Shown here in pieces: positions 127 to 40,466 of a stretch of DNA of 64,000 nt. A program made the position numbers and the translations under genes. Source of the stretch: Hymenopus coronatus (taxonomy: Eukaryota > Arthropoda > Insecta > Mantodea > Hymenopodidae); contig CM060892.1 in assembly GCA_030762935.1 (NCBI GenBank), positions 85,132,827 through 85,196,826 on the forward strand, in the 5' to 3' direction. The notes beneath the pieces were generated by a model, which saw only the letters and a list, made by a program, of their open reading frames with translations, had not been told where the DNA came from and ran no database searches. The stretch's first letter is position 1. The number at the start of each line of letters is the position of its first letter.

Positions 127-288
127 CACTGATGCAGTATTTCCTGAAGGAATGTTAGCCTGCTCAGAAGATGCTAATATGTCAGCTTATGCTAGCAACC
201 TAGACAGTGGCTATTCTCAGTCAAAATGGGTAGCAGAACAGCTTGTCTTGCGAGCTCGAGATAGAGGGCTGCCAGTAGCAATTTACAG
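127..288 (+). CDS. Fusion enzyme exon 1 of window: thioester reductase catalytic YxxxK
   Basis: Acceptor ctcttcatacag precedes base 127 and donor gtaatt follows base 288. The leading base completes a codon begun in an upstream exon outside the window. The peptide contains [14 protein letters not shown]. Its Tyr (212-214) and Lys (224-226) form the YxxxK catalytic pair of extended SDR/Lys2-type reductase domains. Acidic residues before it (SEDANMSAY) resemble the variable loop of the family. The Rossmann GxxGxxG segment is not present here and must lie upstream. Confidence 0.85.
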
Positions 289-3200: not shown

Positions 3201-4771
3201 GGGGTAGGAAATGAGGATATAAGGGACCAGTGTGAAATAGCAGATACAAGGATTATTAGAAAAGTATTGAGACATTGAATATTGACCATCCTTGGGGAAA
3301 GCATTGCTGCTGCTTCGAAATAGCTGACTCATTGGTAATGCAATAGTAGCAGGCATAGCATTGTAGCATCATTCATTTACCCTCATTTTATGTTTGAAGT
3401 CTGGAAAGTGTGAACATTCTTGCAAGTACAATGGAGATTCAGAGAGAACATTTTTGTGCAATGATCTTGCCCGACTTCAAATGTGACATAAATGAAACAC
3501 AGTCACTTGAGCATTTGAGGGGGGCTATTGGGGACTAGTCTCTACTGTGTTCTGCTGGTTCAGAGAATTTAAGAGGGGTAGTAATCTCTTAAAGATGAAG
3601 ATAAGAGTACTGCCACACCATGGCCAAGTGGTTAGATCACTGCCTCTCACCTAGTTGGCCTGGGTTCAATCCCAAGCGATGGCATGTGAGATTTGTGGTT
3701 GACAAAGTTTGCAGTGACAGGTTTTCTCTGGGTTTTCCAATTTCCCCTGCCATCACATACCACTGGTGTTCCATCTTCATTCCATGTATCATCAGTGTCA
3801 TTGCCTGCAGTGCCATAGTAGTAAAAGCGAGTGCTAAACACTATAAAAAAATGAAGAGTGGCAGACCAACAATATAGTGACTGAGATAAACATCACCACT
3901 GTCTAAACAATGATTAGATAAGATCAAAGATTAACCGACAAGGATATTGGGTTTGCATTAGTGATTAGTTCCCTGAGTATATCAGCCATCATTCATGAAT
4001 ATCTTTGTGTAAAAAAAAAAAAAAGCTTCAAGATGGGTACAGAAGCTCCATAGAGTGGAATGGTGTCAAATGCTGCTATAGAAAGTCTCGCTGTGTTTCA
4101 GATAGTGTTACGATGATGTAACATGGATATATCAATTTGACCCAGAAATAAAACTCAGTCCTCCATTTGGGTGTTCTCTGGTGACCAACCTTCTGTCTAG
4201 GTCAAGAGAGCCAGAAAGAAAATGCTGCTTTGAAATCTTCTCCAAAACTGATCACTTGGCAACAGTTGTGCTTGGAAATCAGAAAATATTACTGCAAAAT
4301 GGTACACAGAAGTGTGCTTTCAAAAAGTGTTTTAAAAAATATAAGAAAAACATCCAAAGACAGGTCTAAGGGGCATTTTGTTGCATCATGACAGTGCATC
4401 ATCTCATCCTGTTAGTGTAACAATGGAGTTTCTACAAGGAACTGAGGCAAACCTATTGACTCATCCACCCAGCCTCGCACCAACTGATTTCTTCCTGTTC
4501 CCTATGGTGAAGAATTGGCTTCAAGGTCACCAATTTTCAAGCCCTAAAAACGCTTTTGCAGCATATGAAGAGGAGTTATCTGGAGTGCCGGAAACTTAAT
4601 GGCATGGATGCCTTCAGAAGTGGTACCAGAGGATGGAATGCTGCATACAGTGACAGGGAGGATGCTTTGAGAGACTGGGATACATAAAATGTTTCTAGGA
4701 GTATTCATTATTTGCTATACTTATCTAGTGACCCTTGTATTAACAAATTTGTGAAAAGATGAAACAAAAAT

Positions 4772-4816
<45 letters not shown>

Positions 4817-7800: not shown

Positions 7801-10800
7801 GATTCTATGATTCTATTCTGATTATTATTTACATACACATGATATACTGCTTCACATTATCACCAGATACAAGAAAATAAAATTTGTTCATTTACAAAAT
7901 CACCAATAGGACACATTCCCATATAAGTTATACAGAGTTATTATTCGGAAACTAAATTCATAAGCCATTGATAATTTTGGGGGTCTTATAGGACAGATAA
8001 TATGCTATAACTTTAATGAAAATGTACACCTCTTATGTGAAAGTCATCCTATCTACGGAAATATATAGTAATTTATGATTCATGATGCTAAGTATTCTCT
8101 TCTGGTGCAGATGTGGCAATGTTGGTGGTTCACAAGAAGAACCAAGTTGGAATCCTGCAGACTTTACACTACTCATGCTTCAGGGCTGCATTGCTACTCT
8201 TAAAGCCCCAGACGTCAATTGGCAAGTATGTTATCGTTAATATCTACTTTTAAAATAAATTATGTCCATGTCTATCTACACAAATTCATCTAATAATGTA
8301 CAATGGTAACAAAATTATTGACATCACATACAATAGTGATTAAAATAGAATGAATAATTTTAAGTAAAATCTTTGCACTGAAATCTAGGCTGAATATCTC
8401 CTTATTATATAAATCATTCATCTTGGAGTATGTGTAATATGTCATTATATGATTATGGAATACTTGAGCTGTTGTATTTCACAATTTCAAAAAATACAAG
8501 GGAAGATCAAATAAAAATGGGAATTTTAATGTAATTTTGAGAGGAGACTTTGACAGTATGTTGGGGGGGTATCTGGAGAGGGGGTATTGCATGCGCATGC
8601 ACCATAGTGAATGGGGCTGCGTCAGTACGCCATGAGTGAGCAAGGGGTACACATGTCTGTTGCTCAATGCATCATCATCATCATCATAATCATCATCAGA
8701 TTTCTTGTAAAAGAGGGCACCAAACCTTTGGAAATTTGAGATGGCTCCGTGCACACTTTGGGGAAGAAACACTTTCGAAGACTGGAGTGTGAGTAGGCTA
8801 AAATTTTTGTAGCAGGAAGAGAAGTTTGCAAAATGAACCTCATAGGAGGAGACCGCAGACAAGTATTACTGCAAACAATATTGTTGCCATTCATGACATT
8901 ATTGAAGAAGATCAGCACATAAAACTATCCGAAATTGTTTTTGTCCTAGGAATAAGTTACGGAAGTGTTCAAAAATCATCCATTACAGAAAATTGTCTGC
9001 TAGGTGAGTTCCTCATCTCCTCAACTAGGTACAAAAAATGTTATGCCAGGAAGTTTGTCAGAGACACCTGCATCGCTACGAGGAGGAGGGAGAAAATTTA
9101 TTGAATAACATTGTGACTTGTGATGAAACATGGGTGCATCATTACACCCCAGGGTCAAAGCAAGCAAGCATGGAGTGGTGGCAAGGAGATGAAGCAGGTC
9201 CGGTGAAGGTCAGAACACGTCCATCTGCTGGAAAGGTGCTTACAACCATTTTCTGGACTCTGCGGGCATTTTGCTGGTGGATTTTCTTCACGAACAAAGA
9301 ACAATTAATGCAGCCTATTACTGTCACATTTTGGATGAAGCAAAAGCTGCATATTGCAACAAGTGATGCCGGCAACCCATCCAAAACATCATTCTTCTCC
9401 ATGACAATGCGAAGTCATATACTGCTGCTTTAACGCGGGAAAAACTGAAGAAAATGCATTGGACACCACTGGAACACCCTCCTTACAGTCCAGATTTATC
9501 GCCCTGCAACTATCATTTGTTTGGATCACTCAAACAAAACCTTGGAGGTGATGATGAAGCAAGTGTAGAAGAATTCATGCGCAACTAGCTCCACACGTGT
9601 CCTCCTTCTTTCTATAAGAATGGCACCAAAAACTTGCCAATCTGATAGAGAAAATGTGTATCAAAGGCAGGACACTATGTAGAAAAGTAATCTATATATA
9701 AGTAGTTTTGTTTGTTGATGTAATAAATTTACAAAATAATTCCTGTTTATATTTGATCTGCCCTTGTACAAGATTCTTAACCAAATGTTATAGTTTAATA
9801 TAAAATTACCTATCTACTGACCTTTTTTTCCTGGTTTAAAAACCAAATTGTTCATGCTACTTACTAAAAATGCTTACATTGATTAACTGATGTTAATGAA
9901 GTAGAAGTGGGGTTAGTTATATCTTAACACTGACACCTTTTGGCTTTTTGTACAGAGTCTGGCAGAGGAACAGGTGATTTTACATTATGTTTTTTCTCCA
10001 TAACTTCAATAATATGAAAACTGTGTGCACATTTTGTCACTATGGCAATGCAATCAATAAAGATGCATCAGTGGACAGGACAACAATGTGCTTTTGCAGT
10101 GAAAAGATTTTATAGAAACAACAGTAGTTATGAGGCTGCTATGTGCCAATTTTGTTGTCATCTGTTGTTACCCATCAGCTCATCCCACAAAAATTTGGAT
10201 TAAGAACTTTGAGGAAAATGGTTTGACACTGAAGAAGAAGCCTTCAGGTAGCAGAAGGACCAAGCACACAGCACAGAATGTTGCTGCACTAAGAGTTGCT
10301 GTGTAGAGAAGTTCAATGTACTCAGTGGTGAAGCTTTCTGCTGCAATGAACTTATTGGAGAATATTGAATTTCATCTCATTTTTATCCTTACAACTTCAG
10401 TAGTGCATCAACTCTCATCCCTTGAGATTTTTCTCTCATGAATAACATTTCAAGATAGATTTAAATCAACAGAATGAAGATTAATTTATTAACAAACTGT
10501 GGCTTGAGATTTTTCTGTCATGAATAACATTTTATGAATAGATTTAAATCAACTGAATGAAGATTAATTTATTGACAAATTATGGATATCTGACGAATCG
10601 CAATTTTATCTGTCTGGGTTTATAAACAAACAAATTTAGATATTGGTGTCAAAACAATCCTCTTCAATTACATAAAAAACTATTAGTCAGTTAAAGAGTA
10701 ATTATTTGATGTGCCATGTCATCTTCTGGAACAACTGCATTTTTCTTTTTTAAGGATGAAGAAGGAAAAACAAAAACCATGAACTCAGCCAGGTATGTGG

Positions 10801-13147
10801 CATGATTGAAACATTTCTTACTAATGAAATTACAGTTTCCTGGTTTCAGCAAGATGTAGCCACTAGTCATACTGTGGGGACCTTCATGAATGCCATAAGG
10901 AGACCTTTCCTAAGCAAATTACCTTCATTAGAGGTGACATCACCTGGCCAGCAAGATCCTCAGATTTGATTGTGCATGATTTCTTCTTATGAGGATATTT
11001 GAAGATTACCCACAAAATATTGAAAGGTTAAAGACCAATATTCGTTTTGAAATCACCAATGTTCCATGTTGGACATGTTGCATTGCTGTATGCACAGCTT
11101 GTGGCTGAGGTTTGAAGAATGTCTGCAAGTAAATGGTTGTTGCCTGAGAGATGTTATTTTCAAGAAATTAATGGCATATAATGTTGGTTAAGAACCACAT
11201 ATTATACTTGTGAAAAAATGTTTTCTTGTATAGAATAAACATAATTTAAAATTGCCCATTTATCTGCTGGACCCTATACTTTTCATACTTTCATTTTTCT
11301 TATGCAAACAGTCTGGTTCCTTGAATAAGTTTTAGTAATTCCTTTACTAAGTTTTTCATTTGAGAGATTTCCTTTGAATGGGTGCAGTCTAAGAGTTCTT
11401 GTATGCCTTTGGCTTGCTTACTCCTATTTGCTTACATGATAGGCATATTATAAAATAAATACTTAATTATCTGAATACATATTCAGTATCTGATTAATCT
11501 AATTGTTCCATTTATACCCTGTCTTTAACTGCAATAGTCATATTGGCAGCCTTTATTACCTTTGAAACATATTTTCTCTCAACAATGGCATTAGCTTGTA
11601 TACAGCTGAAATTGGATTTTGTTTGTTTTTTATTTTATACATTAGATCACAACTCATTCACACTTCTAGACTCTGGGAAAGATAGGGAGTAATCTTGACT
11701 AGAGAAAAATGTTCGTCCTCTAAACCGGAATTGAACCTGGAACCTCTCACAGCAGGCAGGTGCTCAATCGACTGAGCACTGGACCAGCCAAATAATATTT
11801 CAAATTATTAATAAAACATTAGTTCCTTGTCCTATAAGCTACTTTAGAATTACAAGGCAAAAACAAAGAAACAAACAAACATACACTCTTTTTCTAGAAA
11901 AACAATCTGTATGGTTTAGCTCTAATGGGAGAAAATGATATTCATGTAAAATAATAGAAATAAACAAGATATTTAAGGTATTGTTAAATGCATTGTTTTA
12001 TTCATGTTAACAGATAGAACTTACTCCAGTAGATTTTGTTAGCCGTGTTATTGTGGGCATGTCACAAGATATCTTGCATTCCATAGGCAAGATTTTCCAT
12101 TTAATCAACACTGAAACTATGGACTGCCAGTAAGTATTAATTTATTACAGCACTAACTCTCAATGTAAATTACTTTGTACCTCTGTAAAGCTATGACATA
12201 GTGGTAATAACAACAACAAAACTGTTACAGTCATTTGTGGCAGCTGCTACGGGTTCAGGGTTATCCAGTGGAAGTAGTACCATATACTGAGTGGTATAGA
12301 AAGGTGCAGGAAGCCTCACAACAAGAGACTGAGTACAAAGGAACATTAATCAGTTTATTGTATCTTCTGGATGCTCTTGTAAGGTATTATAGTCAGCATA
12401 ATGATTATCAAAAGCATGTTGATAATGTGTTTACTCTTACTATTTTAATATTTTGCATAGTTATTCTTCCTCTACTTCTTTCATTATTTATCCTCTTCAT
12501 ATAGAGGACTTACACTCCCCAGGACTTACAAGCCAGCGGCTACAGTCAAATGTCTGTTGAAGAGCAGACAGCCTGCTGGATCAGAGAGAGTAGCCAGGAT
12601 GACTCACAAGTGCCTGGTATGAGAGTGAGGAAGCTGATGATGTGAAATGACAGTGAAATGAATGATAGAAAAGGTAATGATGTAGCAATTGGTGCAATGA
12701 ATGGCAAGGGAAACCTGAATAAAACCCCCAGATGCTACTTTATGCATCACAAATCACACATGCAGCCCCCTGGGATCAAACCTTGGCCACCTTGGTGAAT
12801 GTTTTAACCCACTAGTTTTAGCTTATTTGCTTAGAGTGATTGATTGATTGATTGATTGATTAATTAATTAATTTGTTAGTTTATTTCAATTGAACAAGCA
12901 CATGTTATGGGACAGATGAAATATATGCATATAAATCTAAAAATTAGAAAAGAAGCAGTAATTAAATACAATATTTACAATAAACAAGCAGACAAGATGT
13001 CTTGATTTGTAAATATTAATAGGAATATTTTAGCATATGTAAAAATTACTCTTCAGTTGGAGATCTGGCAATTACTATGAAGAAATTAACCATGATTGTT
13101 TGTACAGATGGTTTAAAGATGATGAATTTCTTCTTCTTCTTCTTCTT

Positions 13148-13228
<81 letters not shown>

Positions 13229-16200
13229 AATATCACGGAACCAAATGAATAAAGCACACACTAATAGAAAGAATAAAATATAAATGGTAGAGTGGTTCAT
13301 TTAACATTATGAAAAGGGGGGCTCTTAACCTCATAAATGACAAAAAAATAAAAATATGCTGTGAATAAACTAGCCAAATACATGGTCATCAAGCCAATGA
13401 ATTGCATCCATATCATTTCCACTTCAACATCATGTAAATAATGTGAACAGAAGTGAAGGGCTAGGTCACAGAATGTAACAAAACATATATTTTGGCAGAA
13501 GTAAAATGTCTCACAAGGGAACAAATATAGGTAGGGTTACCACCTGCCTGGGACTACTCCGGACAGTCTGGGTAAGCAGAAATTTGTCCAGAGTTCGGAC
13601 TCAGGCTTAATATTTCCAGGAATCTGATTTATTTTTCCACCATGATAACTCTCAATAATTTGCTATTCATATATTTTAAAAAATTGGAGTAAGCCTTTAC
13701 ATAATAGAGGGCAGCAATAATCAGTTAGTACCAGCAGCACATAATTGTTATCACATTCCCACGTGAATGCACTTCAACACAAGTGTTTGAAAAATTCGAG
13801 AATTTATTAAATGAACTCAGAGACTGTGTGATGGCTTCTAAGGCTATAAAGTTTCTTTGTGTCTTAGAAACCTTCCTGCTCAGAAAATACAACAGTTGGA
13901 ATCAAAATTGAACAAATTTTATGAGTGTGCTATTGGTTATTTACAAAAATGGTTTGATTTTAGTAAGAATAACCCATTTCAAAATCTCAAAGCCTTCAGC
14001 CTCACATAAGATATAAAATGGAATGACTTTCAAAATGCCATAATTCAACTTGGCTTGTGTGATCTTATGGACATGAATGCCCTTTATTCAGAATACTGCC
14101 TTGTAAAGGAAGTTCTTCCTGAATTTATTTCAAAACATAATTCATGTGCTTCAAGTGGAGCTTCTTGTTTGCAAAAACCGTAGTTGACTACTTACCAAAT
14201 TTGTTTGTAATTGTTCAGTATGTACTTTCTATTCCTGTAAGTAATGCACTTACAGAACTAGTGTTTTCGATAATGGGAAATGTTTGGACTGACAATTGTA
14301 ATAGGCTGGATGTAGATGTGGTCAAAGCAGAAATTCAATGTAAATCAACTTTGAATCAATGAAATGTACTATCTAAACCCTTACTTGTTAAGACTGTAAA
14401 ATTAAACAAGAGGTGTACATTTAAGTTTGAATGATCAAAGAGACAGTTGATTGTACTTAATAATATGCAGTATAAGAGACAAATTTGTAAATGTAAGACA
14501 TGTACTCTATGTAATAATTAAACCAATTTTAATATTATAACACTAAGCTTATATTTTATCCCCTAAGTAGTGTACAAAAAATATTTCTTCCATGCACATT
14601 CTGACCAACCCCTTTCCACAAAAAAAAAAAAAAAAAAAAAAAAAAAGTGATAACCCCAAATATAGAGAAGTGACATCTGTGGAGGAGTGCTAATAAATGG
14701 TTATTAACAGTTCAGTCAACCATCATTTTATGACTAATAAAGGGGTGAACCTGAAATATTGAATATTTTGTGAGTTTAGGTGTTTTTCTTTCACACAATC
14801 TTGTTCTTTTACCACATACCTATATCTCTTATTTATTGAGCATTATATATTTATTTGCTACATAAATATATAATGCAAATATTTATGTAGAATGAGAATA
14901 AGCAGTCATGTAGGCATCATTATGCCTAAAAGCATGAAGGGGGCAACACTGGTAATTATCACGTGGAATTTCAAAACTCTGGAGCTGGCCCTGAAAGCGG
15001 TACAAGTTGCATGTTTTTTTTTTGTTTTTTTGTTTTTTTTTGTTTTTTTTTTTGTTTTTTTTTTCTCTCCCTGATTAAGAAAGTATGGACTATAGCCACT
15101 ATCTGGTTCTATCTCTGCTCATATAATGAAAAGTTTCTTATGTTATCTATAGTTCATAACTCCAAATTCCACAAAGGAGCATGAACTAATCTACACAGGA
15201 GTAATAATGAGTTGTGTTTGCTGAAAATATAGAATTCTATAAGCAGTGTTAACCGTCTGTGTATTATGATACAATTAGGGTGTATACCTCCAAGAACTTA
15301 CAAGCCAATACTTGTAATAGTGTATGATTTTCAGCAGATGCTTATTTCGTTTGATAAGTTCAATTCTAATGGTTTCTCAATTAATGTATTCAAATCAGCT
15401 GTGTTAAATAATAACCGTATAATATTCTAAATCAGTGCTATTAAACTAACAAAAACTTAAAAAATATAAAAAATAATTTATTTTGTTTAAGTGCATTATT
15501 TTCTGTCACTTAGCCTTATTTTCCATTAGCTTATCTTTGACTATACTAGAAATTATGAGAATTTTGGGACAGTGATGTATACTATGAATCAAGCATTCGT
15601 TTGAATCAATTGTAATAATTTTATTCATAATGATACGTAAAGTTTTGTTGCAAATAATGAATTATGGTATTAACATTTACACTTTACATTTTAATTACTA
15701 AGGACATGTTTTGGAGGCGCTGTCGCTTCCATTATCAACTTTTCTTGTTAGTGGTGAAAATGTGTTACAATTGACGTATACTCAATTTGAGTATACTGTT
15801 TCATGATAATAATACATTGAAATATTATGGATTTAGTATTATTATTATTAAATGAACCTCTTGGTTTGGAAATTAACAACTAATGAAAATGTGTCTTACA
15901 TATATTCTTTTATTTTTCTAGAGAACCAAGCTATTTCAGCCATATGAGCACTTATACTAAGAACAACTTAGAAATATCGTTAAAGGCTCAAGGCCTGAAA
16001 TATCCTCCTGTTGATGCAGAGCTCATGAGGAAATATCTAAGACACCTTGCTCAGATAGGATTTATTCCAAGACCCAACAGGAGACGTCGTGATAGTAAGT
16101 ACTACATTTTATGTTCATTATAGCATTTAACTAATATGGAGCAACTCAGTCAGAAAATGTTGTATCCTACTAGTTTGCCCAGAATGTTATTGTAATCATT

Positions 16201-22200: not shown

Positions 22201-25200
22201 AGGAACATTGCCTTTTCTTTTCCAGACAAGTTCCTCTTGTTCAAATATTTACCTTTTGTATCTGATCACAGATCTAAGATAGTGTGATTCTAACATTTTG
22301 TCATTAATTGTGCTGTCATAATTATTTAGTTACAAGGAGGAGAAAATAATATGGAAATTCAGAAATTGGCAACATTGGGCAGCAGTAGCTACTCAAGGTG
22401 ACAACTTGGCATATTAGCAATCTGGCAGTGCCTCAAGTTGGCCTAGAGTCCCAAGTAATCCAAAGCAATGGTCAAATGTTGTCGATTTAAAGGATTAAAC
22501 CACACAAAGATTTTCTAATCTGATCACAAGTGATAAATATTAATTAAAGAGATAAACATAACAAATTTAGATAAGTGTTTTTTAAGCTTATACAAAATTG
22601 TATGTGTTTTTTTTCTGAGAGTAGTAAATATTTCAAACTTCCAATCATACATTAATATAACAGTAATATCAAAATGATTATTTTTAAAATTATAACATTT
22701 TAAGTGAGTTGTCTTACTGAAAGAAAAAGAATTAATGTTCTGAAAACTTTACATTTTGTAAGATTAAATTCAGTGAAAACATCCCTCTGAATGTAACTAA
22801 TAGATAAAAATGTTTAACTTGGTTTGCTAGCTGCACAGCTGTTGCACAGCAAGGTTGCTTTGGTAACTGGCGCCTCTTCTGGTATTGGAGCAGCTATTGC
22901 AGAACATTTAGCCCTAGCAGGAGCCAAGGTGGCATTGGCTGCACGTAGAACTGAACGACTTAAGGAAATACAAACTCAGATAGAGCGCCAGGGTGGCTCT
23001 GCTATTACTGTCACAATGGATGTAGTAGACGAGAAACAGGTGAGTATTCCCTAATTGAAGAAGAAAAATTGTAATGTTTGAAAAAATAAAGGAATAAGCT
23101 AGAAATTTAGGATTGAATTGACTTAACAATCCTAGGTTTCACTCATTGGAGGAACATGTTTTCGTAAGCTCTGGCTCACATCATCAGCAGCTGGTTTGAA
23201 TATCTGGGTTCCTTGTTGATTGAAAGAGTTCTTTTGATGGTGAGGTTTTAACCATTTAATGAAATTCATTTACATGGAAGTTTCAATGTCCATTAATAAG
23301 TCTTCATGTTTTTTGATAAGAATTTTCTTCTACATTTCTAACTCTTTTTTATCCCTGGTAGTATTTTAACAACTTTATGCCAAAGCTTATATATGTTATT
23401 GTTTCAAAAATGGTAGGCCACAGCTAATTTTATATTTGCTTGAATTTAATGTTAGTGCGAGTAAAATGATCTTTCATCCTGACATAATCTTTTTGTTTCA
23501 CCAATGTATATTTGGCCACAATCCAAACTGTTGATTTAGTATATACCAGGTTTGTCCTTAGATGTGATATTTTCCATTTTATTTTATTTTAACAAGTGTT
23601 AAGCAGAAAACCCATTTTGAGAAGCCAAAATGATGTTGTGTTTTTTGAAAATCTTCTGAAACTGTTCCTTAGCTGTAGGGTGGCATAATTTCCTGTGGAA
23701 AATGTTAGGTTTGTCTTCCTGTAGAGGGGTTGGATCTCCCAAGTGCTTGTCCTTTTTAACCTTTTGGATTCTTTTGTTCATCAGGTGTTCATCAAAGCCA
23801 CTTAATTCAGCTTTTTAATAAGTTGCTCTCTTTTCCTATGATATTCACTTTGGTTCATGATGACACTAACCAATCTATGAGCCAAACTACTGAAGAAAAC
23901 ATAAATAAATATTATGTTTGTTGATGACACTATTGCCAGGATTATATCATCCATACCAATGTGTCGGAATTTTGTGCTGCAGTCAGAAATCTGTGATATG
24001 GGGCTGTTACTTTTAAGCACTGGTCTGGGCCAGGTTTGAACCTGTGACTTTTGGATCTGAAGGCCAGTGCATAACCAATTGAACTACCCACACTGACTAT
24101 TGAAAATCACATGTTTATGTTACTGGGGGTATAGTTTGGCATATTTGTGTGCTTCCTGAAAATGCTGAGTTCAAATATGTCCATGTTTTTGTGAAGTTTA
24201 TATCCAAAAAAGCAAAATTTCATTTCCCTGGTGAAGTTTGTGGTTGTTACTTTGAAATTTTGAAATTTAAAAGTTAAATGGAATCTTATTGTAATTTTTT
24301 CTTTATGGCCGCAACAATATTTACTACAGAAATTAACTTCTGCTCCAAATAGATAAACCATCAGAAAACTTCTGCCAATTGAGTGACCTGGATATTCAAA
24401 CCAGATAGCAGCATCTGATGATGTGAACAACAATTTAAAAAATCATGTTCCTGCAGTAAATGTGGTGAAATAAGTGAAAAACCCAATAATCCTAAATTTC
24501 CATTCATGTTGGTTTCACTGTATAAGTTGCTTCAAGAAGTTGAAAACTTTTGGTTTTAATTGCATCATATTGTAAACTTTCTCTATGGATTATTTAATGA
24601 ATTAATCAGCCAGGGGCATATGCAGGAGCGGGGGGGGGGGGGGGGGTGGCTCACCTAGAATACATGCAAAAATGTAAATGCAATTTGTGCATTCTCGTTG
24701 TTTTTCTATAGCTCTTTTATATTTACGGATTTAGTACACCACATTATACCTGTTATTAAACAGGTACAAAAATACTATATCAGTACATTAAAGCAGTGGT
24801 GAATATTGGGACATGACAAAGAATTTAATCTGTTCTTTTGTAAAATCATAATTCCATACCTTGGTTGGCAAAAATGATTAAATGCCTCACTCTGTTCATG
24901 TTACTATCCACACACGATTAGTCTCAGGAGTTGGTGCTGGATACAGAGTACCTCCTGTAGATGTAGTGAAGTGAGAGGGTCTGCCCATAGTCTAGTGATT
25001 AACACATCTGAAAAGCATGAGAACTCTATGAACTCCTGCATACCTTTTGGTTTCATAAATACTTAAAAGATTTGTTGCTCATGCTGACCCATTAAATCCT
25101 TTATTTAGTCAACATTCTTTGACCATGGTTCAGTTGGCATCCCCCCCATTTGGATAAATCCCTAAAAGTCACTATGAAATGACTGACATCATTTGCTAGA

Positions 25201-26049: not shown

Positions 26050-26088
<39 letters not shown>

Positions 26089-28546: not shown

Positions 28547-28604
<58 letters not shown>

Positions 28605-30386
28605 TAATTGTAATTACTTATTAATAAAAAATAATGAGCTCCATTTAATTTTGAAATTTATTAACTTTTGATTCCTTTTCTATTAGGCAAATTAAGAATC
28701 CCTATTCCAATACTTAAGATCACTAGGCTGGCTATTCTAACTGCTTCAGCTGTCCTCGAGACTTATTGGTTATGCTTTGCATAGCAAATGAATGCATGAG
28801 GTGTATTCTTTTGCAACCTTCCCCTTCATGTCTCATCCTGAAAATATGCCTACTATACCCCATCTATCCACATACTACTTCTGCCTGAGAAGACAGGCTA
28901 CATTACATTGTGAAAAGAATCAAGTTTTATCACAAGTAGCCAATTTTAGGTTGTAACAATAGGCTAAAATGCAAACAGCCAACAGATTGAAGGGGCATAG
29001 TTAACACTGAAATAATTATACTAATGCTTAACTAAACTCTCTATTAATAACTCAGTTTTATTATTCAATTCAAGCTCCACCTTTAGAGTGGTTTCTTGAC
29101 CAGAGAATTTTTAGTCCGAAAGTTCAGCATTATGTATACATGGTGATGAAGGATTAACTCATTCCTCTAGATAGCTACATAGGATGAAATCATGACTTTT
29201 GGATGTGAAACATGGCGAATTTAGCACAGGGACCTTTTCTTTCAAGATTTGGGATTCTTTTATGTGTAAATAAACATTACACGAATCAGCTGCTTTACTT
29301 CCCTTCTGAAGCAAAACATGCTAAGGATTTTTACATCCAAAATCAATACATCAACCTTCACCAGGTTTGAACGCACAATCTTGGTCCTTAGAAACTAGCT
29401 TGCTAACCACTACACCACAGAGGGCCACTTAGTTATATTAGGGAATAAATAAATTAATATGCATTATAGGTTTGTAGCATAACAAACAGTGCTTATAAAT
29501 CACTATCATCACCATTAAATATGTGTATATGTTCTTTTTTGTTGTAATTTTAATAGCTACCCATTTTTGGACTCATTAGCATGCCCCATTACAGAGTAAT
29601 ATTGTATGCATGTGCATCTGCATTTTTTCTAAAAATGCTTTTATTGGATTCAGGGGGCCTTAAAACATGTATTTGGAGTGAAATCTCAATATCAAATTTT
29701 CTGATGGAATTTGATACTTCTCTACCTTCTATGTACATGGTAAAGAAACAAATATTTCAAATTTATCCACTTAGAAAGTTTCGTAATAATGAAGCTATCT
29801 TTATTTCATTTTCTCAGCAACTAATTTTCATCTTTATTCTTATTGTTATTGCTAGAACAAATTATGATCAGCTTAAAATATAAAGAAGAGCTGAAGCTTT
29901 CCTGATATGCAATTCTGAACTTTCATGTTATCAGTTTACCCTAAAGACGAAGATGATGCACATCTTCAGAACGTTGGAGTCAATCTATGCACTTACCTGG
30001 CTAGAAGCCCAAAAACACTTAGAGCTTAAAATATTTTGGTATGTCATCACTATTTTGTACATTACGCGTTATACGCATTATACGCGTGTGGTTTATTCAT
30101 TGTAATGCATTGTCATGTATTCCCACTTAGGTGCAACAAGGTGTGCAGCACATTGAATCTATGCTTGGTCCAGTAGACATCCTTGTAAACAATGCAGGTG
30201 TTATGTATTACACATTCATGAAGAATTTATGTGTGGATCAGTGGCATAAAACAGTTGATGTCAATGTTAAAGGTGTGCTCAACTCAACTGCTGCTGTTTT
30301 AGATCAGATGGTTAAAAACAAACAAGGTCACATAATTAACATAACATCAGATGCCGGTCGAAGGGTAAGATAATTGTTTTAACATA

Positions 30387-30425
<39 letters not shown>

Positions 30426-36400: not shown

Positions 36401-39400
36401 TAATACCAATACTATAGTTTTCAGAGATATAGTTAAATAAATTGCATGCATAATGTTTATACTGCTGCCATAAGATTGTGATATTTAATCTACTGTCCTT
36501 ATACTAAGCTGCTGGCTCTTTAGGACATTTTCAATTTAAATTTGTTCCATTCACATAACTTTCTCTAACTTACTGTAAGCAAACTATTCTTACAAGAATA
36601 TTCTTTTATTTACATATGCTAATCAAGATACAATTACCAGAAATGGTTTTATTACTTAGCTCCTTATAGTAGAAGGGAAATAATACTCTGGTTTAAAGCA
36701 ACTCAGCTTTTTTAAAGGCTGTTGCTATGGGATTGTCATTGAAATTTGGTTTTCTTTCCATGACCAGGAGTAAAACAAAAGCGATATGAAATGGATGAGG
36801 GCTTCCTTTTTGACAAAAGTTTATATATTTTAAAATTAAAACCAATAATATCAAATATCTTAGAAATGGTTAACTCAAAAAAAAAAAAAAAAAACAACAA
36901 CAACAACAACAACATGACATTTATGTGTGTGTTAACAAGACTTGCATTTTTTGTCTTTTATGGTTTCCCAGATATGCAGAAGTCATTCAGAATTAAGAGA
37001 ATTTCAGTGGCTATTACCAAGAAATTAAAGATGTACATTTTATTTGTCATGAAAGCTTTTAATATACAAACATTACAGCCATTTTTAGAAATTTTTTTTT
37101 AAACATGTTCCATGTTAAGGCTAGTCTGGACACACACAATTTCTTTAAAATACTCTGTTTATTCAGTGGCCCTCAAAATATGTATTTCCAGTGAAATCTC
37201 AGTATAAATATTTTGGTTGGAATACAAACCTTCTCTACCTACTATGTACATGTGCTAGAGAAAATGAAAATCCATTCCCTCACAAGGCAATCCAGTGTGT
37301 AAGTAAATGTGTTATTGCTAGAAAATCACTGCTTTGTTCATTTACCCTCTTAATGCACAGTATTTCCAGCAAATTCATATTCACAAATATATTGTCTAGT
37401 ATTAAAATTTTCACCTTGAAATTTTAATTTTGCAGAAATGTGTTATGTGTAAATGAAAATGTAATTTGTGTTGTTGCATCATTGCAAATCTTATGACAGG
37501 GTTTTGCTGGCCTAGCAGTATATTCTGGTACCAAATTCTTTGTTGAGGGAATGAGTCAGGCTATGAGGCAAGAACTTGCAGAGTATGGCATCCGTGTGAC
37601 CTGCATCCAACCTGGAGATGTCACAACTGAACTGGCAGAGTATTCCACTGATGCCGAGGTAATTCAAACAGGATAATAGTAAAATAAGAGATTTCCTAGT
37701 AATATGTAAATGTTTTTGGGCTTCAATCAGATGAATTGTTGGCAGAACTCTTTGGTATTTTGGGAGTGTGCCTCTTTCCCATTTTCAGGATGGATGGATG
37801 GATGCCGAATAAGTTAAAAGATGCATTTGTATAGTGTTTCACTGATATTAAATAAAATTAATTATGATGGAAACTTTAGGCATAATTAATACTGCACCAA
37901 TTTTAGCTGCCCATAGTGGCAATTATACATGTTGGTGACCCTTACCAGATAGTGGTGTAATAGTGAATAGGGCACGGAACACAGGTATAACATAATGAGT
38001 ATTCTATTCCATTTAGCTGCACGTATCTATTATTAATCATGTTTGTGGGTCTAGTGTGGAAATCTGATAAAACACAAACGTAAATAGTATGTACATACAG
38101 TTGTGCAAGTGGGTGTTGAGCAACTCGAATCTTCCATATTCTAGATAACAATGTGTATATTTCTGCAGGCTTCCACGATTATAGTTCACTGGAGGTTGCA
38201 ACTTACACCGGAAGCCAAAGCAACCCTAATGTGCATATTGTTGTTTACACTTGTGTTTAAGAGATTTCTACACAAAGATCCATAAACATGTTTAATAATA
38301 GGTACATACAGCTAAATGGAATAGAATACTCATATTATTTCTGTGCTTCCTGCCCTATTCATTCTTATGCCATAATCTATAAGGCTCACCAACATATATT
38401 ATTAACGTATGGGCAGTTAAAATTGGTGCAGTAAGGGCTGATTACATCTGATGTTTCCATTGCAATTAATTTTATTTCAAAATTGATGAGACACTTTGCG
38501 AATGTGCCTGTCAGGCATTTTGTTTTTATTTCGGGGTGGCTCCACATCCATGCCCACAATTGCAATCATCTCCAGAAGCTACATCATCTCTACATGCACA
38601 TACACATCAGAGGATGGGTTAGAGGGTTACATTGAATCTTCCATACTGATATGATGTTTTTAAACAAGTCCTGCATTAACACCCTAGTTAATATAATGAA
38701 GAAGCATTGTGTATTATTAAGTACATTAATTTCTAAGTATAATTATGTTAGTCACATTGTACTGATCATAGGACTTAGGCAGGGAAGCTGGCTCATATTT
38801 ATACCGAGAAGCTGCTTTGGCAGCTATCATTCTATCTTGGTAATTTTGAAATGTTACCATTGATACAAGGGTTATTAAAAAGTTTTGAGAATGGGCAATA
38901 ATGAGTTGTAAACCAAAGCAGCTTTACGTAACTTCAGATTAAATTTTAGATAGCAACATGTGCAAGTCTAGGCATGCTCCAACAATGCCCATCGTCAGCA
39001 TCACATGTATATGTATTGTTTTGCCTTATGCTAAGATGGATCTCAAGTGAGAGAATTTCTGTGCTATGATTTTCTATGACTTTAAAGTCTGTTTAAGGGG
39101 GAGGTAATGCCTTGCCAAACTGCATTGTTCTTTTGGAGTTCTATGCCCTTTGCAATCCACCATTTATCAATGCGCATATGGTCAGGTTCAAGAAGTCCTA
39201 AACATTGGATCAGCAGCAAAGAAAATACTCCTGATAGAAAAACTTGACATCAGGAAGCTCTGCAATCGTTGGATCCCACTTCAACTCACAAATGAGCAGA
39301 AACTAACCATCTGCAACAGTGCCAGGAAATGAATGAAAAATTCAATGGAGGAAGGCCCAAAATCATATTAATAGTTATGTTGACAGAAGCTGGGTTTACT

Positions 39401-40175
39401 ATAATAATCCAGCAACTTAATTTTAGTCATAGGTCTGGGTCTTCCCAGAAGAAAATCCCCCAACAAAAGTGAAGCGAACAGGGAGTGTTGGAAAAATGAC
39501 CCGTTCCTTCTTCTCAGCAAGTGGCCAAATTGGGATGATTCTGCTTGAGGGGCACTGTCAGATAGTACAACACAAAATGTCTGCCACAAGTGTTGATGAA
39601 CTATGAAAAAAGTATCCTAAGACTGTTCTGTGTGGAACTGTTGCACCATAACAATCCCTCTGCCTATGCTGCACAAGAAACAACCAAATTTCTGCAGGAG
39701 TCAGATATTTGTTCCATTCTCCATATAGTCCAGATGGCCCCATGCAACATTTTTCTATTCCCCAAAATAAAAGAAAAAGTTTAAGGTCATCTGAAGCCAC
39801 AGAGCTGCTTACAAAAATGTATTTGCACTCTTTCCAAAGATGGCATTTAGCATTGAAAAATGGTTTGAAAGCATGAGACAGTACATAAAATGGGATGGAG
39901 AAGATTTTGATATGCAACGATCAGATCTATATTTCTATTATTTTATTGCATCCATTCTCAAAATTTTTGGAGTGACCTTATATTATGAAATTTGCTGTAT
40001 TATAAAACACAAAACAAAATTCTTTTTGCAGGCTGTTGAAAAATGCAACATGGCAGGAAAGATGAAATTCCTGGAGCCTGCAGACATAGCTCAAGCAGTC
40101 ATTTATGCAGTGACACAACCAGAATATTGTGCAGTGAATGAAATATTAGTGGAACCAAGAGAAGCACCAATATAA
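127..40175 (+). CDS. Thioester reductase-SDR fusion enzyme (A-T-R-R type), 3' part of gene, nine exons
   Basis: Whole-gene entry; exons are 127-288, 8111-8225, 12014-12129, 12231-12383, 15922-16094, 22831-23039, 30131-30364, 37500-37658 and 40032-40175. Joined, they give one open frame of 487 residues ending in TAA, and every junction keeps phase with GT/AG borders. Residues 1-239 are the C-terminal half of a Lys2-like NAD(P)-dependent thioester-reductase domain. In this family the domain releases a carrier-bound acyl group as an aldehyde. Residues about 240-487 are a full-length classical SDR, which would reduce the aldehyde to an alcohol. The two are joined by a single codon split across the 16094/22831 intron. 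The adenylation and carrier domains expected in this family would lie left of the window. Known comparison: fungal ATRR, which reduces glycine betaine to choline. The substrate here is unknown. Alternative: two adjacent genes, but there is no stop after the reductase and no start before the SDR. Confidence 0.85.
289..1809. other. Intron with repeat fragments
   Basis: Part of the 7.8 kb first intron of the fusion gene. About 430-600 resembles the body of the S2-type SINE (compare 47515-47600 and 62560-62830). About 610-780 is a partial copy of the dispersed repeat also seen at 26850-27330 and 41640-42090. The rest is AT-rich with no recognisable feature. Confidence 0.5.
1810..3085 (-). mobile_element. 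Full-length but inactive mariner element
   Basis: Terminal inverted repeats of the form taacacctcct lie at 1810-1820 and 3075-3085, flanked by TA duplications (1808-1809, 3086-3087). Length is 1276 bp, normal for mariner. The - strand transposase is split into three pieces: 2931-2572 (N-terminal helix-turn-helix region), 2495-2256 (first Asp in TMDEMW) and 2259-1912 (second Asp in HQDN, third Asp in ASSDFW). The second and third Asp are exactly 34 residues apart, so this is DD34D mariner. At least two frameshifts break the frame. Confidence 0.92.
3247..4737 (+). mobile_element. Decayed mariner element carrying a nested SINE
   Basis: Ends resemble each other as inverted repeats (left caaggattattagaaaagta; right, reversed, caagggtcactagataagta) with TA on both outer sides. 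The transposase C-terminal region survives at 4378-4599 ([32 protein letters not shown]). The middle is full of stops. A SINE of about 260 bp sits at 3612-3875; without it the element is about 1.2 kb. Same family as the copy at 38866-39930, judged by ends. Confidence 0.8.
3612..3875 (+). repeat. tRNA-derived SINE (S1 type), nested in mariner
   Basis: It begins with a tRNA-like head: A-box-like tggccaagtggttagatcac and B-box-like gggttcaatccc. The body has ttttctctgggttttcc and cccctgccatcacat, shared with copies at 26358-26720 (+), 12500-12830 (-) and 52690-52995 (-). Confidence 0.75.
4773..4816. repeat. (AAT)n microsatellite
   Basis: About 14 perfect ATA/AAT units follow directly on the end of the mariner copy. 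Confidence 0.95.
4817..4990. repeat. Dispersed repeat, copy 1
   Basis: Shares an ordered series of words with 6612-6735 (ttttcttgggcactc, gtcttcatttgg, caattttggaag, caacattgaggtatgaag-like). The two copies are about 1.8 kb apart in the same orientation. Family unknown. Confidence 0.6.
5040..5770 (-). mobile_element. hAT-type transposase remnant
   Basis: The - strand peptide at 5642-5424 ([14 protein letters not shown], then [20 protein letters not shown] and [15 protein letters not shown]) matches the catalytic core region of hAT transposases of the DUF659/CGGBP-like kind. The VDETTD block is characteristic. Further - strand pieces on both sides are frameshifted. No terminal repeats were identified. 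Confidence 0.7.
5771..8110. other. Intron, mostly unassigned
   Basis: It holds the second copy of the 4817-4990 repeat at 6612-6735, a pyrimidine-rich tract at about 6965-7130, and a C homopolymer near 7133-7143. On the - strand at 7745-7530 there is a Cys-rich peptide ([13 protein letters not shown]) that could be a piggyBac C-terminal remnant, but this is weak. Otherwise nothing recognisable. Confidence 0.45.
8111..8225 (+). CDS. Fusion enzyme exon 2: thioester reductase
   Basis: Acceptor ctggtgcag and donor gtatgt. Phase joins from the previous exon to complete Arg (AIYR). It then reads [18 protein letters not shown], the conserved stretch after the catalytic Tyr/Lys in Lys2-type reductases, usually written RPGxISG...WNPADF. 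The residue after Arg is Cys rather than the usual Pro, as YRCGNVGG. It continues to [16 protein letters not shown], also typical of this domain. Phase 0 at its end. Confidence 0.85.
8497..9766 (+). mobile_element. Full-length inactive mariner element
   Basis: Inverted ends begin caagggaagatcaaataaaa at the left and match the reversed right end, with TA on both sides (8495-8496, 9767-9768). Length is 1270 bp. Transposase pieces are on the + strand: 8826-9104, then 9038 on in another frame ([15 protein letters not shown]), then from 9391 in a third frame ([11 protein letters not shown] ... [16 protein letters not shown]). The second Asp (codon 9403) and the position normally holding the third Asp (codon 9508, here AAC, Asn) are 34 residues apart. 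So it is DD34D mariner with a D-to-N change plus frameshifts. Confidence 0.92.
9953..11274 (+). mobile_element. Decayed Tc1/mariner-superfamily element
   Basis: Weak inverted ends (agagtctggcagaggaa; reversed right end gggtccagcagataaatg) are flanked by TA. + strand fragments read [13 protein letters not shown] and [20 protein letters not shown], then [20 protein letters not shown] and a late [16 protein letters not shown] end. These fit the long-tailed mariner-like transposases often labelled DUF4817/DDE_3. An 82 bp segment is tandemly duplicated inside (10421-10584). Confidence 0.7.
10421..10584. repeat. 82 bp tandem duplication
   Basis: cttgagatttttct starts at 10421 and again at 10503, and the two units agree with only a few differences across their length. 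It duplicates part of the transposase coding remnant. Confidence 0.85.
11695..11795 (-). repeat. tRNA-like SINE head
   Basis: Read on the - strand, a tRNA-like A-box (tggtccagtgctcagtcg) is followed about 35 bases later by a B-box-like ggttcaattcc. The short promoter-like head and lack of a clean cloverleaf suggest a SINE fragment rather than a tRNA gene. Confidence 0.55.
12014..12129 (+). CDS. Fusion enzyme exon 3: thioester reductase
   Basis: Acceptor catgttaacag and donor gtaagt. It begins [15 protein letters not shown], the diagnostic 'ELTPVDFVS' segment of the thioester-reductase fold, and runs to [11 protein letters not shown]. It ends two bases into a His codon completed by the next exon, across an intron of only 101 bp, much the shortest in the gene. 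Confidence 0.85.
12231..12383 (+). CDS. Fusion enzyme exon 4: thioester reductase C-terminal part
   Basis: Acceptor aaactgttacag. The frame reads [20 protein letters not shown], matching the late part of Lys2-type reductase domains ('[12 protein letters not shown]'). Two donors are possible, after 12378 or after 12383. Only the second (gtatta) keeps the next exon open, giving ...LLDALVR. The first would put a stop 13 codons into the next exon. The donor used is non-optimal at its later positions. Confidence 0.8.
12500..12830 (-). repeat. SINE, S1 type, in the intron
   Basis: Contains ccccaggacttacaagccag and ggatcaaaccttggccacc (B-box-like on the - strand). The arrangement is the same as 52690-52995 and the mirror image of 26358-26720. 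Confidence 0.75.
12836..12873. repeat. (TTGA)n / (TTAA)n microsatellite
   Basis: Six gattgatt-type units grade into taattaatt. They immediately follow the SINE. Confidence 0.9.
13128..13226. repeat. Compound (TTC)n(TTA)n microsatellite
   Basis: About 16 TTC units switch abruptly to about 16 TTA units. Confidence 0.97.
13530..14620 (+). mobile_element. hAT-family transposon remnant
   Basis: The left end starts near 13530 with gtagggttaccacctgcctg, typical of hAT ends. The + strand peptide at 14150-14362 ([20 protein letters not shown], then [20 protein letters not shown] and VKAEIQCK) is the C-terminal hAT dimerisation domain. Upstream frames are broken. The right end was not defined; an A homopolymer follows at 14621-14646. 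Confidence 0.75.
14650..15921. other. Intron, no gene
   Basis: It contains a T-rich tract punctuated by single G at 15013-15064 and otherwise AT-rich sequence. Nothing else recognised. Confidence 0.5.
15922..16094 (+). CDS. Fusion enzyme exon 5: end of thioester reductase and linker
   Basis: Acceptor tatttttctag and donor gtaagt. The peptide is [16 protein letters not shown] followed by [18 protein letters not shown] and [13 protein letters not shown]. The 'KY...L..IGF.P.P' ending is the normal C-terminus of this reductase family. No stop codon follows: the exon ends one base into a codon and splices on to the SDR exon. The linker is basic and very short, so the two catalytic domains would sit almost directly in tandem. 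Confidence 0.82.
16203..16745. mobile_element. Foldback element with a perfect 40 bp internal hairpin
   Basis: The outer ends are inverted: left atagggtcatattaattata and the reverse of the right end atagggtcattaaattacat, followed on both sides by catggcctctctccact. Similarity continues inward in pieces. At the centre 16419-16458 and 16471-16510 are perfect 40 bp inverted arms around a 12-base loop. A half copy of the same ends is at 50600-50735. No transposase is encoded, so it is non-autonomous. Confidence 0.8.
16885..17185 (+). repeat. tRNA-derived SINE
   Basis: A B-box-like gggttcaattcc is at about 16962-16973. The body runs through ccagtgcccactcagtattg and aagctgtggctggggcctag to aagccccaggcttgtaataa. 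The poly-T tract that follows marks the next element. Confidence 0.6.
17186..17455 (-). repeat. SINE, S3 type
   Basis: Poly-T (reversed poly-A tail) at 17186-17220 is followed by gtcctttaacctggttggtc and, at the right end, a reversed tRNA-like head (cgaaatcatggcc ... ctacccaggtgggc). A second copy in the same orientation is at 21685-21935. Confidence 0.75.
17456..18605. other. Intron, unassigned
   Basis: On the - strand between 18540 and 17930 there are broken peptide-like stretches, but I could not assign them to a family. No splice-flanked exon in phase with the fusion gene was found here. Confidence 0.4.
18610..19844 (-). mobile_element. Decayed mariner element
   Basis: Inverted ends share agttttgagatac next to cactac. 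- strand transposase pieces: 19593-19300 (HTH region, [30 protein letters not shown]), 19190-18993 ([18 protein letters not shown]) and, further down, [15 protein letters not shown]. At the second catalytic site the frame reads LLHHNTFVH where the family has HHDN, so one Asp codon is missing. Confidence 0.85.
19850..21320. other. Intron, no gene
   Basis: Apart from the tandem duplication at 20879-21018 and a T run near 21087-21102 I see only AT-rich sequence. Confidence 0.5.
20879..21018. repeat. Identical 70 bp tandem duplication
   Basis: The unit catggtgacaagactaggc... occurs at 20879 and again at 20949 with no differences, including an A-run near its end. A very recent duplication, or an assembly artefact. 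Confidence 0.95.
21331..21680. repeat. SINE bounded by ~62 bp direct repeats
   Basis: 21331-21392 and 21618-21679 are near-identical (gtatatcattgtaccttt ... gagaggagtgttaca). Between them is a tRNA-like SINE (S4 type, ctcaatggttagagcaactg, ending in gaatttttcaactggtccaa). The direct repeats are too long for a normal target-site duplication. Confidence 0.65.
21685..21935 (-). repeat. SINE, S3 type, second copy
   Basis: Shares tttaacctggttggtcat, ggacaatgaatgaaattggt and ctacccaggcaggc with 17186-17455, in the same - orientation. Confidence 0.78.
21940..22830. other. Intron end, no gene
   Basis: No repeat or coding feature recognised before the SDR exon acceptor. Confidence 0.5.
22831..23039 (+). 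CDS. Fusion enzyme exon 6: SDR cofactor-binding N-terminus
   Basis: Acceptor ggtttgctag and donor gtgagt. With the 'a' from exon 5 the junction codon is ACT (Thr). The SDR follows as [19 protein letters not shown], with the NADP-binding TGxxxGIG motif and the basic AARRTERL stretch that favours NADP(H). It continues to [10 protein letters not shown], where the Asp is the adenine-ring contact of classical SDRs. There is no in-frame ATG in the exon ahead of the Rossmann strand, which argues against a separate SDR gene starting here. Confidence 0.85.
23110..24480 (-). mobile_element. Penelope-like retroelement remnant with GIY-YIG region
   Basis: On the - strand, in order: 24433-24107 with [20 protein letters not shown], the late reverse-transcriptase 'FLD...YRKPT' region; 24020-23802; 23781-23599 with [16 protein letters not shown]; then about 23530 reading [11 protein letters not shown], the start of a Penelope-type GIY-YIG endonuclease. 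Frames are broken throughout, and a tRNA-like SINE head interrupts at 24010-24105. Confidence 0.65.
24010..24105 (-). repeat. tRNA-like SINE head inside Penelope-like element
   Basis: The reverse strand has an A-box-like tggttatgcactggcc and B-box ggttcaaacctgg. It splits the - strand reading of the Penelope-like remnant. Confidence 0.55.
24631..24647. repeat. G homopolymer
   Basis: A run of about 17 G follows ggggcatatgcaggagc. Such a junction often marks a repeat end, but no family was recognised. Confidence 0.9.
25380..26250 (-). repeat. Dispersed repeat 'D', long copy
   Basis: Shares an ordered set of blocks with 36600-37230, 40920-41340 (same orientation) and 26850-27330, 41640-42090, 55680-56110 (opposite). 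Blocks: tagaagggaa...aaaggaat, gtcattgaaatt, caggagtaaaacaaaa, catacattttatttgtcatg, gagatactgaacttaaatac, cagggggcctcaaaacata. Strand assigned arbitrarily. No coding frame; family unknown. It contains a CA microsatellite. Confidence 0.75.
26026..26105. repeat. (CA)n microsatellite
   Basis: About 35 CA units with a few interruptions, inside repeat D. Confidence 0.97.
26358..26720 (+). repeat. SINE, S1 type, long copy
   Basis: Head: tggcaccatagctgagtggt with B-box-like ggattcaatccc. Body: tctggatgggttttctcc and cccctgccactcattccacc. It ends near cttgtaagtcctagagagga. It is the longest copy and defines the orientation. Confidence 0.8.
26850..27330 (+). repeat. Dispersed repeat 'D', inverted copy
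   Basis: Reads tttcacccaaaaatttgata, ccaagatttcactggaaata and tgagactccctgaatccaga, the reverse of the blocks at 25780-26250. The two copies are separated by one SINE. Confidence 0.75.
27331..29090. other. Intron, AT-rich with microsatellites
   Basis: (ATT)n at 27895-27933 and (AAT)n at 28548-28604. No gene or transposase remnant seen. Confidence 0.6.
29195..29430 (-). repeat. SINE, S2 type
   Basis: tttacttcccttctgaagca and gctaaggatttttacat are followed by a reversed tRNA-like head (aggtttgaacgcacaatctt, ctaaccactacaccacagag). Related copies at 46495-46625, 53545-53735 and 62560-62830. Confidence 0.7.
29615..29730 (-). repeat. Dispersed repeat 'D', short fragment
   Basis: cagggggccttaaaacatgt and ggagtgaaatctcaatatca match the end blocks of repeat D. 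Confidence 0.65.
30131..30364 (+). CDS. Fusion enzyme exon 7: SDR NNAG and catalytic Ser region
   Basis: Acceptor tcccacttag and donor gtaaga, phase 0 at both ends. It contains [16 protein letters not shown], the conserved NNAG of classical SDRs, then [16 protein letters not shown] with the active-site Asn helix. It ends [13 protein letters not shown], which carries the catalytic Ser. Sequence style is closest to YdfG-like NADP-dependent alcohol dehydrogenases. Confidence 0.87.
30387..30449. repeat. (TAG)n microsatellite at a LINE-like 3' end
   Basis: About 20 TAG units with one slip. They are followed by ttttattcgttctgtggatc, which reads on the - strand as a LINE tail running into a trinucleotide repeat. 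Confidence 0.85.
30450..31480. mobile_element. Composite non-LTR retrotransposon remnants
   Basis: - strand: 31325-31140 ([36 protein letters not shown]) resembles the C-terminal tail of LINE ORF2 proteins. + strand: 30624-30870 reads [10 protein letters not shown] (a degraded YADD box), NKLKVNAEK and [14 protein letters not shown], typical reverse-transcriptase motifs. So pieces of two LINEs in opposite orientation are combined. Confidence 0.6.
31003..31140. repeat. 64 bp tandem duplication
   Basis: ataagaatattatataaaac occurs at 31003 and 31067. The second unit carries a ~10 base insertion (aacatataaa). Confidence 0.85.
31575..31700 (+). repeat. tRNA-like SINE head
   Basis: A-box-like tagcttggttggtagagtaa and B-box gtggttcaaattctcg, about 40 bases apart. 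No cloverleaf convincing enough for a tRNA gene. Confidence 0.5.
31701..33062. other. Intron, no gene
   Basis: No assignable coding segment. Nothing further recognised up to the SINE at 33078. Confidence 0.5.
33078..33335 (+). repeat. Intact SINE (S5 type) with target-site duplication
   Basis: Head accctccgtggtcgagtggt with B-box gggtttgattcccgg, a ~170 bp body and an A-rich tail. It is flanked by identical 15 bp copies of aaaaattcactatag (33063-33077 and 33336-33350), so it inserted by retrotransposition and is young. Confidence 0.92.
33351..34100. other. Intron, no gene
   Basis: AT-rich with short A/T runs. No feature recognised. Confidence 0.5.
34100..34375 (+). mobile_element. Possible LINE 3' end
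   Basis: A frame reading [18 protein letters not shown] resembles the ORF2 tail 'RLWNSLP...' of LINEs. The segment ends in ataataaattcattcattca, a short-repeat tail. Stops follow closely; the call rests on a short match. Confidence 0.4.
35110..35955 (+). mobile_element. Decayed Tc1/mariner-superfamily transposase
   Basis: + strand fragments in several frames: [10 protein letters not shown] near the start, and close to the end [15 protein letters not shown], the characteristic C-terminus of the long-tailed mariner-like (DUF4817/DDE_3) transposases. Many stops. Ends not identified. Confidence 0.55.
35958..36230 (+). mobile_element. LINE ORF2 C-terminal fragment
   Basis: [20 protein letters not shown] followed by [13 protein letters not shown] matches the usual end of LINE ORF2 ('YNKLP..I......F...LK..L'). 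The stop is at 36207-36209. It directly abuts the transposase remnant on the left. Confidence 0.6.
36600..37230 (-). repeat. Dispersed repeat 'D', long copy
   Basis: Has all the blocks of the 25380-26250 copy, in the same order and orientation. It contains an A-run plus (CAA)n at 36879-36914, in the place where the other copy has no such tract. Confidence 0.72.
37500..37658 (+). CDS. Fusion enzyme exon 8: SDR catalytic YxxxK
   Basis: Acceptor cttatgacag and donor gtaatt, phase 0. The peptide [20 protein letters not shown] carries the SDR Tyr/Lys pair (YSGTK). [16 protein letters not shown] follows, with the conserved PG loop that closes over the cofactor. All catalytic residues are present, so the domain looks functional. 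Confidence 0.87.
37815..38525. mobile_element. Large foldback (inverted-repeat) element
   Basis: Two imperfect arms of about 290 bp: left about 37815-38115 and right about 38225-38525 read as reverse complements with indels. Examples are gagtattctattccatttag against ctaaatggaatagaatactc, and ctgcaccaattttagctgcc against ggcagttaaaattggtgcag. The centre at 38169-38215 has its own ggcttcc/ggaagcc stem. No coding capacity. It sits in the last intron of the fusion gene, 160 bases after exon 8. Confidence 0.8.
38866..39930 (+). mobile_element. Decayed mariner element
   Basis: The left end acaagggttattaaaaagtt matches the end of the 3247-4737 element. The + strand coding remnant reads [20 protein letters not shown] and later [12 protein letters not shown], the transposase catalytic end region with the second Asp replaced (HHNN). 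The right end is not clear, and the boundary near the last exon of the fusion gene is approximate. Confidence 0.7.
40032..40175 (+). CDS. Fusion enzyme exon 9: SDR C-terminus and stop
   Basis: Acceptor ctttttgcag, phase 0. The peptide includes [19 protein letters not shown] and [13 protein letters not shown], then TAA at 40173-40175. The 'L.P.DIA.AV.YA..QP......NEI...P' pattern is the usual end of YdfG-like SDRs. Two polyadenylation hexamers follow, at 40186-40191 and 40461-40466. Confidence 0.87.
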   Translation, partial: AVEKCNMAGKMKFLEPADIAQAVIYAVTQPEYCAVNEILVEPREAPI

Positions 40176-40185
40176 CCATAAGTTT

Positions 40186-40466
40186 AATAAAGGATACTGA
40201 TGTAAAGCTTTGATACTATCTGAATATTGAAAGCACAAAACAAATGGGCTGTCAAATTACCTAACAAAGGAAACTGTGATTCATTGTATTAAGTTTAAAT
40301 GGAAACATTTGTTACATATTTTGGCTGTTATTTAAATATTGATAATGTTAAAGTGATGGATTATTTATGCAAATGCTAGACTTGCTTTATAAATTATGGT
40401 ACAGCAACATATTTAAAAATGTGAAGCATTTTGAATATTTCATGAAGACTGTGCTTGGTAAATAAA
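40186..40466 (+). terminator. 3' UTR with two AATAAA polyadenylation signals
   Basis: AATAAA occurs at 40186-40191, only 10 bases after the stop codon, and again at 40461-40466. The second, about 290 bases downstream, is the more usual spacing for an mRNA end. Which one is used cannot be read from sequence. Confidence 0.5.

Follow-up and report, generated by a model that had tools for sequence, protein, structure and literature searches.

The locus considered here lies in a 64,000-nt stretch of Hymenopus coronatus DNA (the window), and the question it raises is whether the reductase exons seen there belong to a single A-T-R-R enzyme and what such an enzyme would do. An initial annotation had joined nine exons (positions 127-40175, plus strand) into one frame of 487 residues. 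All nine were found in phase, with an AG acceptor at every exon, a GT donor at all except the last and matching phases at every junction. For the region left of the window, 119,988 bases were examined by motif scans and frame reading, and the scans revealed the motifs A3 (YSSGTTGKPK) and A7 (YRTGD) as well as an exon that encodes carrier and reductase sequence (TGVTGYVG). Thirteen further exons (CM060892.1, 85092352 to 85131133) are in phase with the first exon of the window, and they hold both the adenylation (A) and the carrier (T) domain on whose presence the annotation had staked its reading. The ATRR gene begins ~40.5 kb left of the window and comprises in total 22 exons joined in phase, spanning 80,650 bases (80.65 kb) with 3,873 coding bases for 1,290 residues; the sole stop in this frame is at its end. 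The first ATG directly follows an AG, so that a further upstream exon is possible, and the N-termini of relatives vary in the alignment; the start codon is uncertain.

Within the window, all on the plus strand, the thioester reductase domain (R1) is encoded by exons 14 to 18. Exon 14 (127-288) carries the catalytic Tyr and Lys (YSQSK) and gave a NAD_binding_4 match. Exon 15 (8111-8225), with the RCGNVGG...NPADF part, was recognised only through scoring against short hand-typed probes; it joins in phase and is collinear with Anabrus, Gryllus and Schistocerca. In-phase joins and alignment with relatives place exon 16 (12014-12129, a part with a 10-residue stretch), exon 17 (12231-12383, the C-terminal subdomain) and exon 18 (15922-16094), which holds the end of R1 with a 12-residue stretch and the seam to the SDR. 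The SDR domain (R2) starts in exon 19 (22831-23039) with the cofactor motif TGASSGIG and continues through exon 20 (30131-30364; NNAG, catalytic Asn and Ser) and exon 21 (37500-37658; catalytic YSGTK and the PG motif), each with a Pfam match. Exon 22 (40032-40175), supported by an in-phase join and by alignment with relatives, encodes the C-terminus and ends in the stop codon TAA (40173-40175). A possible polyadenylation signal AATAAA follows at 40186-40191 on the same strand, with others at 40461 and 41009.

Pfam analysis of the 1,290-residue protein revealed AMP-binding, PP-binding, NAD_binding_4 and adh_short domains, all over their cut-offs. The A domain matched PF00501 over residues 30-383 (2e-69, 234.7 bits, cut-off 29.9), narrowly missing the NCBIfam A-domain model TIGR01733 (314.7 vs 317.4 bits). 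The T domain matched PF00550 over residues 549-612 (6e-18, 65.3 bits) and carries the phosphopantetheine site FFELGGHS with Ser 576, a Ser present in 121/121 aligned sequences. With the upstream exons included, R1 matched PF07993 over residues 667-908 (2.5e-60, 204.2 bits) and reached 291.1 bits against the thioester-reductase model TIGR01746 (cut-off 213.35); its catalytic residues are Tyr 832 and Lys 836. R2 matched PF00106 over residues 1050-1242 of the full protein (1.7e-61, 207.6 bits), and the window part alone, with one exon entered as X, gave 4.4e-62. Its classical SDR residues are N1157, S1185, Y1198 and K1202, with YSGTK and PG present. The claim of a YxxxK thioester reductase followed by a full SDR is thereby borne out, as is that of intact visible catalytic residues: the set of eight (S/S-Y-K/N-S-Y-K) is complete in the window protein, in 59/59 named fungi and, the window protein included, in 88 of 94 animal-side sequences. 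Of the other six, two carry one changed residue each and four have gaps, alone or combined with a change. In the PDB, the A-T-R part matched NRPS chains best, with the reductase-domain chains 4u7w and 8v1x over R1, and the closest match of the SDR was clavaldehyde dehydrogenase 2jah. The four domains, their catalytic residues and an open frame are present in one gene.

Closest among 120 listed of 1,753 matches were Anabrus simplex (72%), Gryllus longicercus (70%) and Schistocerca nitens (67%). The names in this list represent at least 13 animal phyla: Arthropoda (Orthoptera, Phasmatodea, Blattodea, Hemiptera), Mollusca, Annelida, Nemertea, Brachiopoda, Platyhelminthes, Nematoda, Echinodermata, Hemichordata, tunicate Chordata, Cnidaria, Placozoa and Acoela. 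At least two of the 120 are named glycine betaine reductase ATRR. Further searches, started from two relatives (best 120 of 2,347 and of 3,305), added fungi and more protists. Among the 120 matches listed of 1,753, many of these 120 being nameless or incompletely named, no Holometabola, crustacean, chelicerate or vertebrate name was seen; absence from these groups is a lead only.

A FastTree phylogeny was built from 222 of 246 proteins (1,140-1,450 residues; 24 shorter or longer ones were left out) together with the window protein. It holds no outgroup family. Its root is poor, and it was used for its splits only, the deep order not being resolved. One split (support 1.0) separates 95 tips, including 59/59 fungus-named proteins, from 128 others. 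The window protein falls in a 96-tip clade (0.998) with 95 others, all drawn from the animal end of the match lists and some of them nameless, and inside it in a 27-tip clade (1.0) with the insect-named sequences kept, five members being nameless. It stood beside Orthoptera in one tree and with cockroaches and termites in two others (0.969, 0.951), the latter placement contrasting with its best identity, among the matches listed, to Anabrus.

To compare the adenylation pocket with that of ATRR, as the initial annotation had proposed, we took the pocket sites to be those of the GrsA numbering and used the A4-A5 motifs to map them by hand. The ten-position code of the window protein is VFWSWCLDIK, its first positions being an ungapped reading by hand, since the PDB alignment has a five-residue gap beside them. 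This code resembles the fungal pocket VFWTWNCEIK, found in eight Aspergillus and one Penicilliopsis sequence, at 6/10 identical positions; the differences are S/T, C/N, L/C and D/E. Only three codes occur over the 59 named fungi. Position 235 is usually an Asp that holds the amino group. Here it is V or I in 93/94 animal-side sequences (one gap) and V in 59/59 named fungi. F236 and W239 are each kept in 93/94 animal-side sequences (one gap) and in all 59 named fungi, and position 330 is D in 94/94 of the former and E in 59/59 of the latter. Position 299, by contrast, is Trp in only 63/94 animal-side sequences and varies among W, I, L, V, H and M. At these hand-mapped sites the pocket thus has the features of a fungal ATRR, namely no Asp at 235, aromatics and an acid, a combination that may well fit a trimethylammonium acid. 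The Nilaparvata lugens sequence P0115 (VLWSWHLDVK, 91% query coverage) is off at two usually fixed positions, so that either its gene model is faulty or the planthopper enzyme has changed.

We propose that the product of the gene, an intact enzyme with the four domains A-T-R1-R2, is most likely, and in our judgement quite probably, a glycine betaine reductase. Its A domain would use ATP to activate glycine betaine and attach it to the phosphopantetheine arm of T, R1 would use NAD(P)H to reduce the thioester and release glycine betaine aldehyde, and R2, the fused SDR, would reduce the aldehyde to choline. Substrate, product and cofactor are predictions, and so is the physiological role of recovering choline from betaine. 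The suggestion of an animal NRPS-like carboxylate reductase of A-T-R-R type, perhaps turning betaine into choline, gains support from the four domains and the fungal-like pocket, with the substrate as its conditional part. To our knowledge, no insect ATRR has been assayed.

A reading of the locus as an A-T-R gene followed by a separate SDR gene, with two transcripts that only seemingly join, could point to the 6.7-kb intron at the seam (16094/22831) and to relatives annotated without an SDR, such as P0010 (1,054 residues). Against it, the phase is continuous over the seam as it is across all 22 exons, and Anabrus, Gryllus and Schistocerca align collinearly with the window protein across the junctions, this one included, with small length differences. 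Full-length relatives have all four domains in a single protein, and in 133 of 141 long sequences (preselected by length, the window's included) 14-32 residues separate the R1 and SDR motifs. A 5,107-base contig, P0004, encodes a 1,278-residue relative with the four domains in one frame, as expected of an mRNA given the many introns in the gene. These observations point to a single polypeptide; two separate genes are unlikely, and two transcripts that merely appear joined seem very improbable. Still less credible is a recent fungal transfer or a contaminant. The family has been reported mostly from fungi (PMC11050029), but the 22 exons lie inside a 187-Mb contig, relatives with Polyneoptera names stand at 55-72% among the matches listed, and the tree splits speak strongly against a recent fungal transfer. 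An animal clade apart from all 59 named fungi instead favours an old animal gene that probably descended vertically from an early animal.

More weight is due to the possibility that the same A-T-R-R chemistry acts on another small acid without a free alpha-amino group, for instance another betaine (beta-alanine betaine, gamma-butyrobetaine or carnitine), and yields a different amino-alcohol serving as an osmolyte, signal or cuticle compound. The four of ten pocket positions that differ from the Aspergillus-type code and the variable position 299 would agree with this. However, animals and fungi alike keep the aromatic and acidic positions best suited to a trimethylammonium group, and a nematode enzyme of the same kind of architecture, MiATRR, affects betaine tolerance in yeast, allowing growth on inhibitory betaine (PMC11050029). 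In the same paper, RNAi of MiATRR harms the parasite, betaine worsening and choline easing the effect. We regard another acid as an unlikely substrate and glycine betaine as the more probable one.

The fungal ATRR is an NRPS-like glycine betaine reductase (Hai, Huang and Tang 2019, as cited in PMC11050029). It has the A-T-R-R order and the eight catalytic residues in common with the window protein, and the fungal P0136 is identical to the latter at 45% in A, 30% in T, 37% in R1 and 50% in R2. The comparison was made with fungal sequences other than the assayed A. nidulans protein, and the fungi lie outside the animal clade. The nematode MiATRR and its relatives, which PMC11050029 links to plant parasitism, share the architecture; the Heterodera relative P0102 is 46% identical over 96%, with a pocket (VFWSHCLDVK) unlike that of the window at two positions, including His at 299. 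Two relatives bear the record name 'glycine betaine reductase ATRR(-like)': P0028 of Haliotis rufescens (52% over 99%; pocket IFWSWCLDVK) and P0076 of Nematostella (54% over 83%; pocket VFWSWCLDVK). Both names come from the source records, and we know of no assay for either protein.

Three other multidomain or reductase families were also considered and were discarded because of their domain content and the model scores. Lys2 (L-aminoadipate reductase) has A-T-R chemistry and an R domain, which the window protein shares, but no SDR, and the equivalog model TIGR03443 gave 442.8 bits vs a cut-off of 1030.1. Fatty acyl-CoA reductases (FAR) have NAD_binding_4 followed by a FAR C-terminal (Sterile) domain; no Sterile domain was found among the 13 Pfam families tested on the full protein. 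In Ebony, A-T is followed by an atypical condensation domain in place of reductases, and in the window protein the R and SDR domains come after T.

Since animal ATRRs have been published (PMC11050029) and are named in source records, the family itself is not novel and the window gene adds one more member to a family already described. That paper knows ATRR from fungi, mentions invertebrates and reports the nematode enzyme tested in yeast; beyond it, no paper about animal ATRR was found among the literature matches listed. A review on plants and nematodes mentions ATRR once (PMC11479011). The words 'betaine' and 'NRPS-like' are absent from the main text, as far as it was available, of the survey 'Nonribosomal Peptide Synthetases in Animals', which appears to have left the ATRR branch out (PMC10531068). 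ATRR appears to be an older and more widely distributed animal enzyme than this small literature suggests.

The remaining interest is physiological and evolutionary. According to PMC8877510, insects are unable to make choline and animals obtain betaine from choline oxidation; the present gene would be an apparently ancient enzyme that reverses choline oxidation in insects said there to need choline. Tentatively, betaine-to-choline reduction may be ancestral in animals, with orthopteroid and hemipteran insects and many marine invertebrate phyla retaining the pathway and Holometabola and vertebrates having lost it, a possibility that we put somewhat below even. If true, such insects could regain choline from dietary or stored betaine, and two general rules would not hold for them: that in animals choline is only ever oxidised to betaine, and that insects depend on choline in the diet. 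A working ATRR would mean two-way choline/betaine traffic in many invertebrates. The listed relatives include pest kinds (grasshoppers, aphids, planthoppers and whiteflies), and the question of choline recovery is directly testable.

Several minor observations concern the surroundings of the gene. Pieces of an ING-family gene lie on the minus strand at 44679-45545 and 58183-58425; the ING domain of its N-terminus scored 39.6 bits and its PHD finger 24.3 bits (cut-off 24), and it is a convergent neighbour of the ATRR gene. Within ATRR introns, mariner-like transposase fragments were seen by eye at 1912-2958 on the minus strand, one piece of which was tested and gave no Pfam match, and a frame at CM060892.1 ~85112700-85113083 looks by eye like the GIY-YIG endonuclease of a Penelope-like element. 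A search of the 3.13-Gb genome with PF07993 gave 74 matches, among them dense arrays of FAR-like exons on CM060892.1 at ~108-110 Mb and on a second contig at ~113 Mb; these lie apart from the ATRR gene and have the appearance of a FAR expansion.
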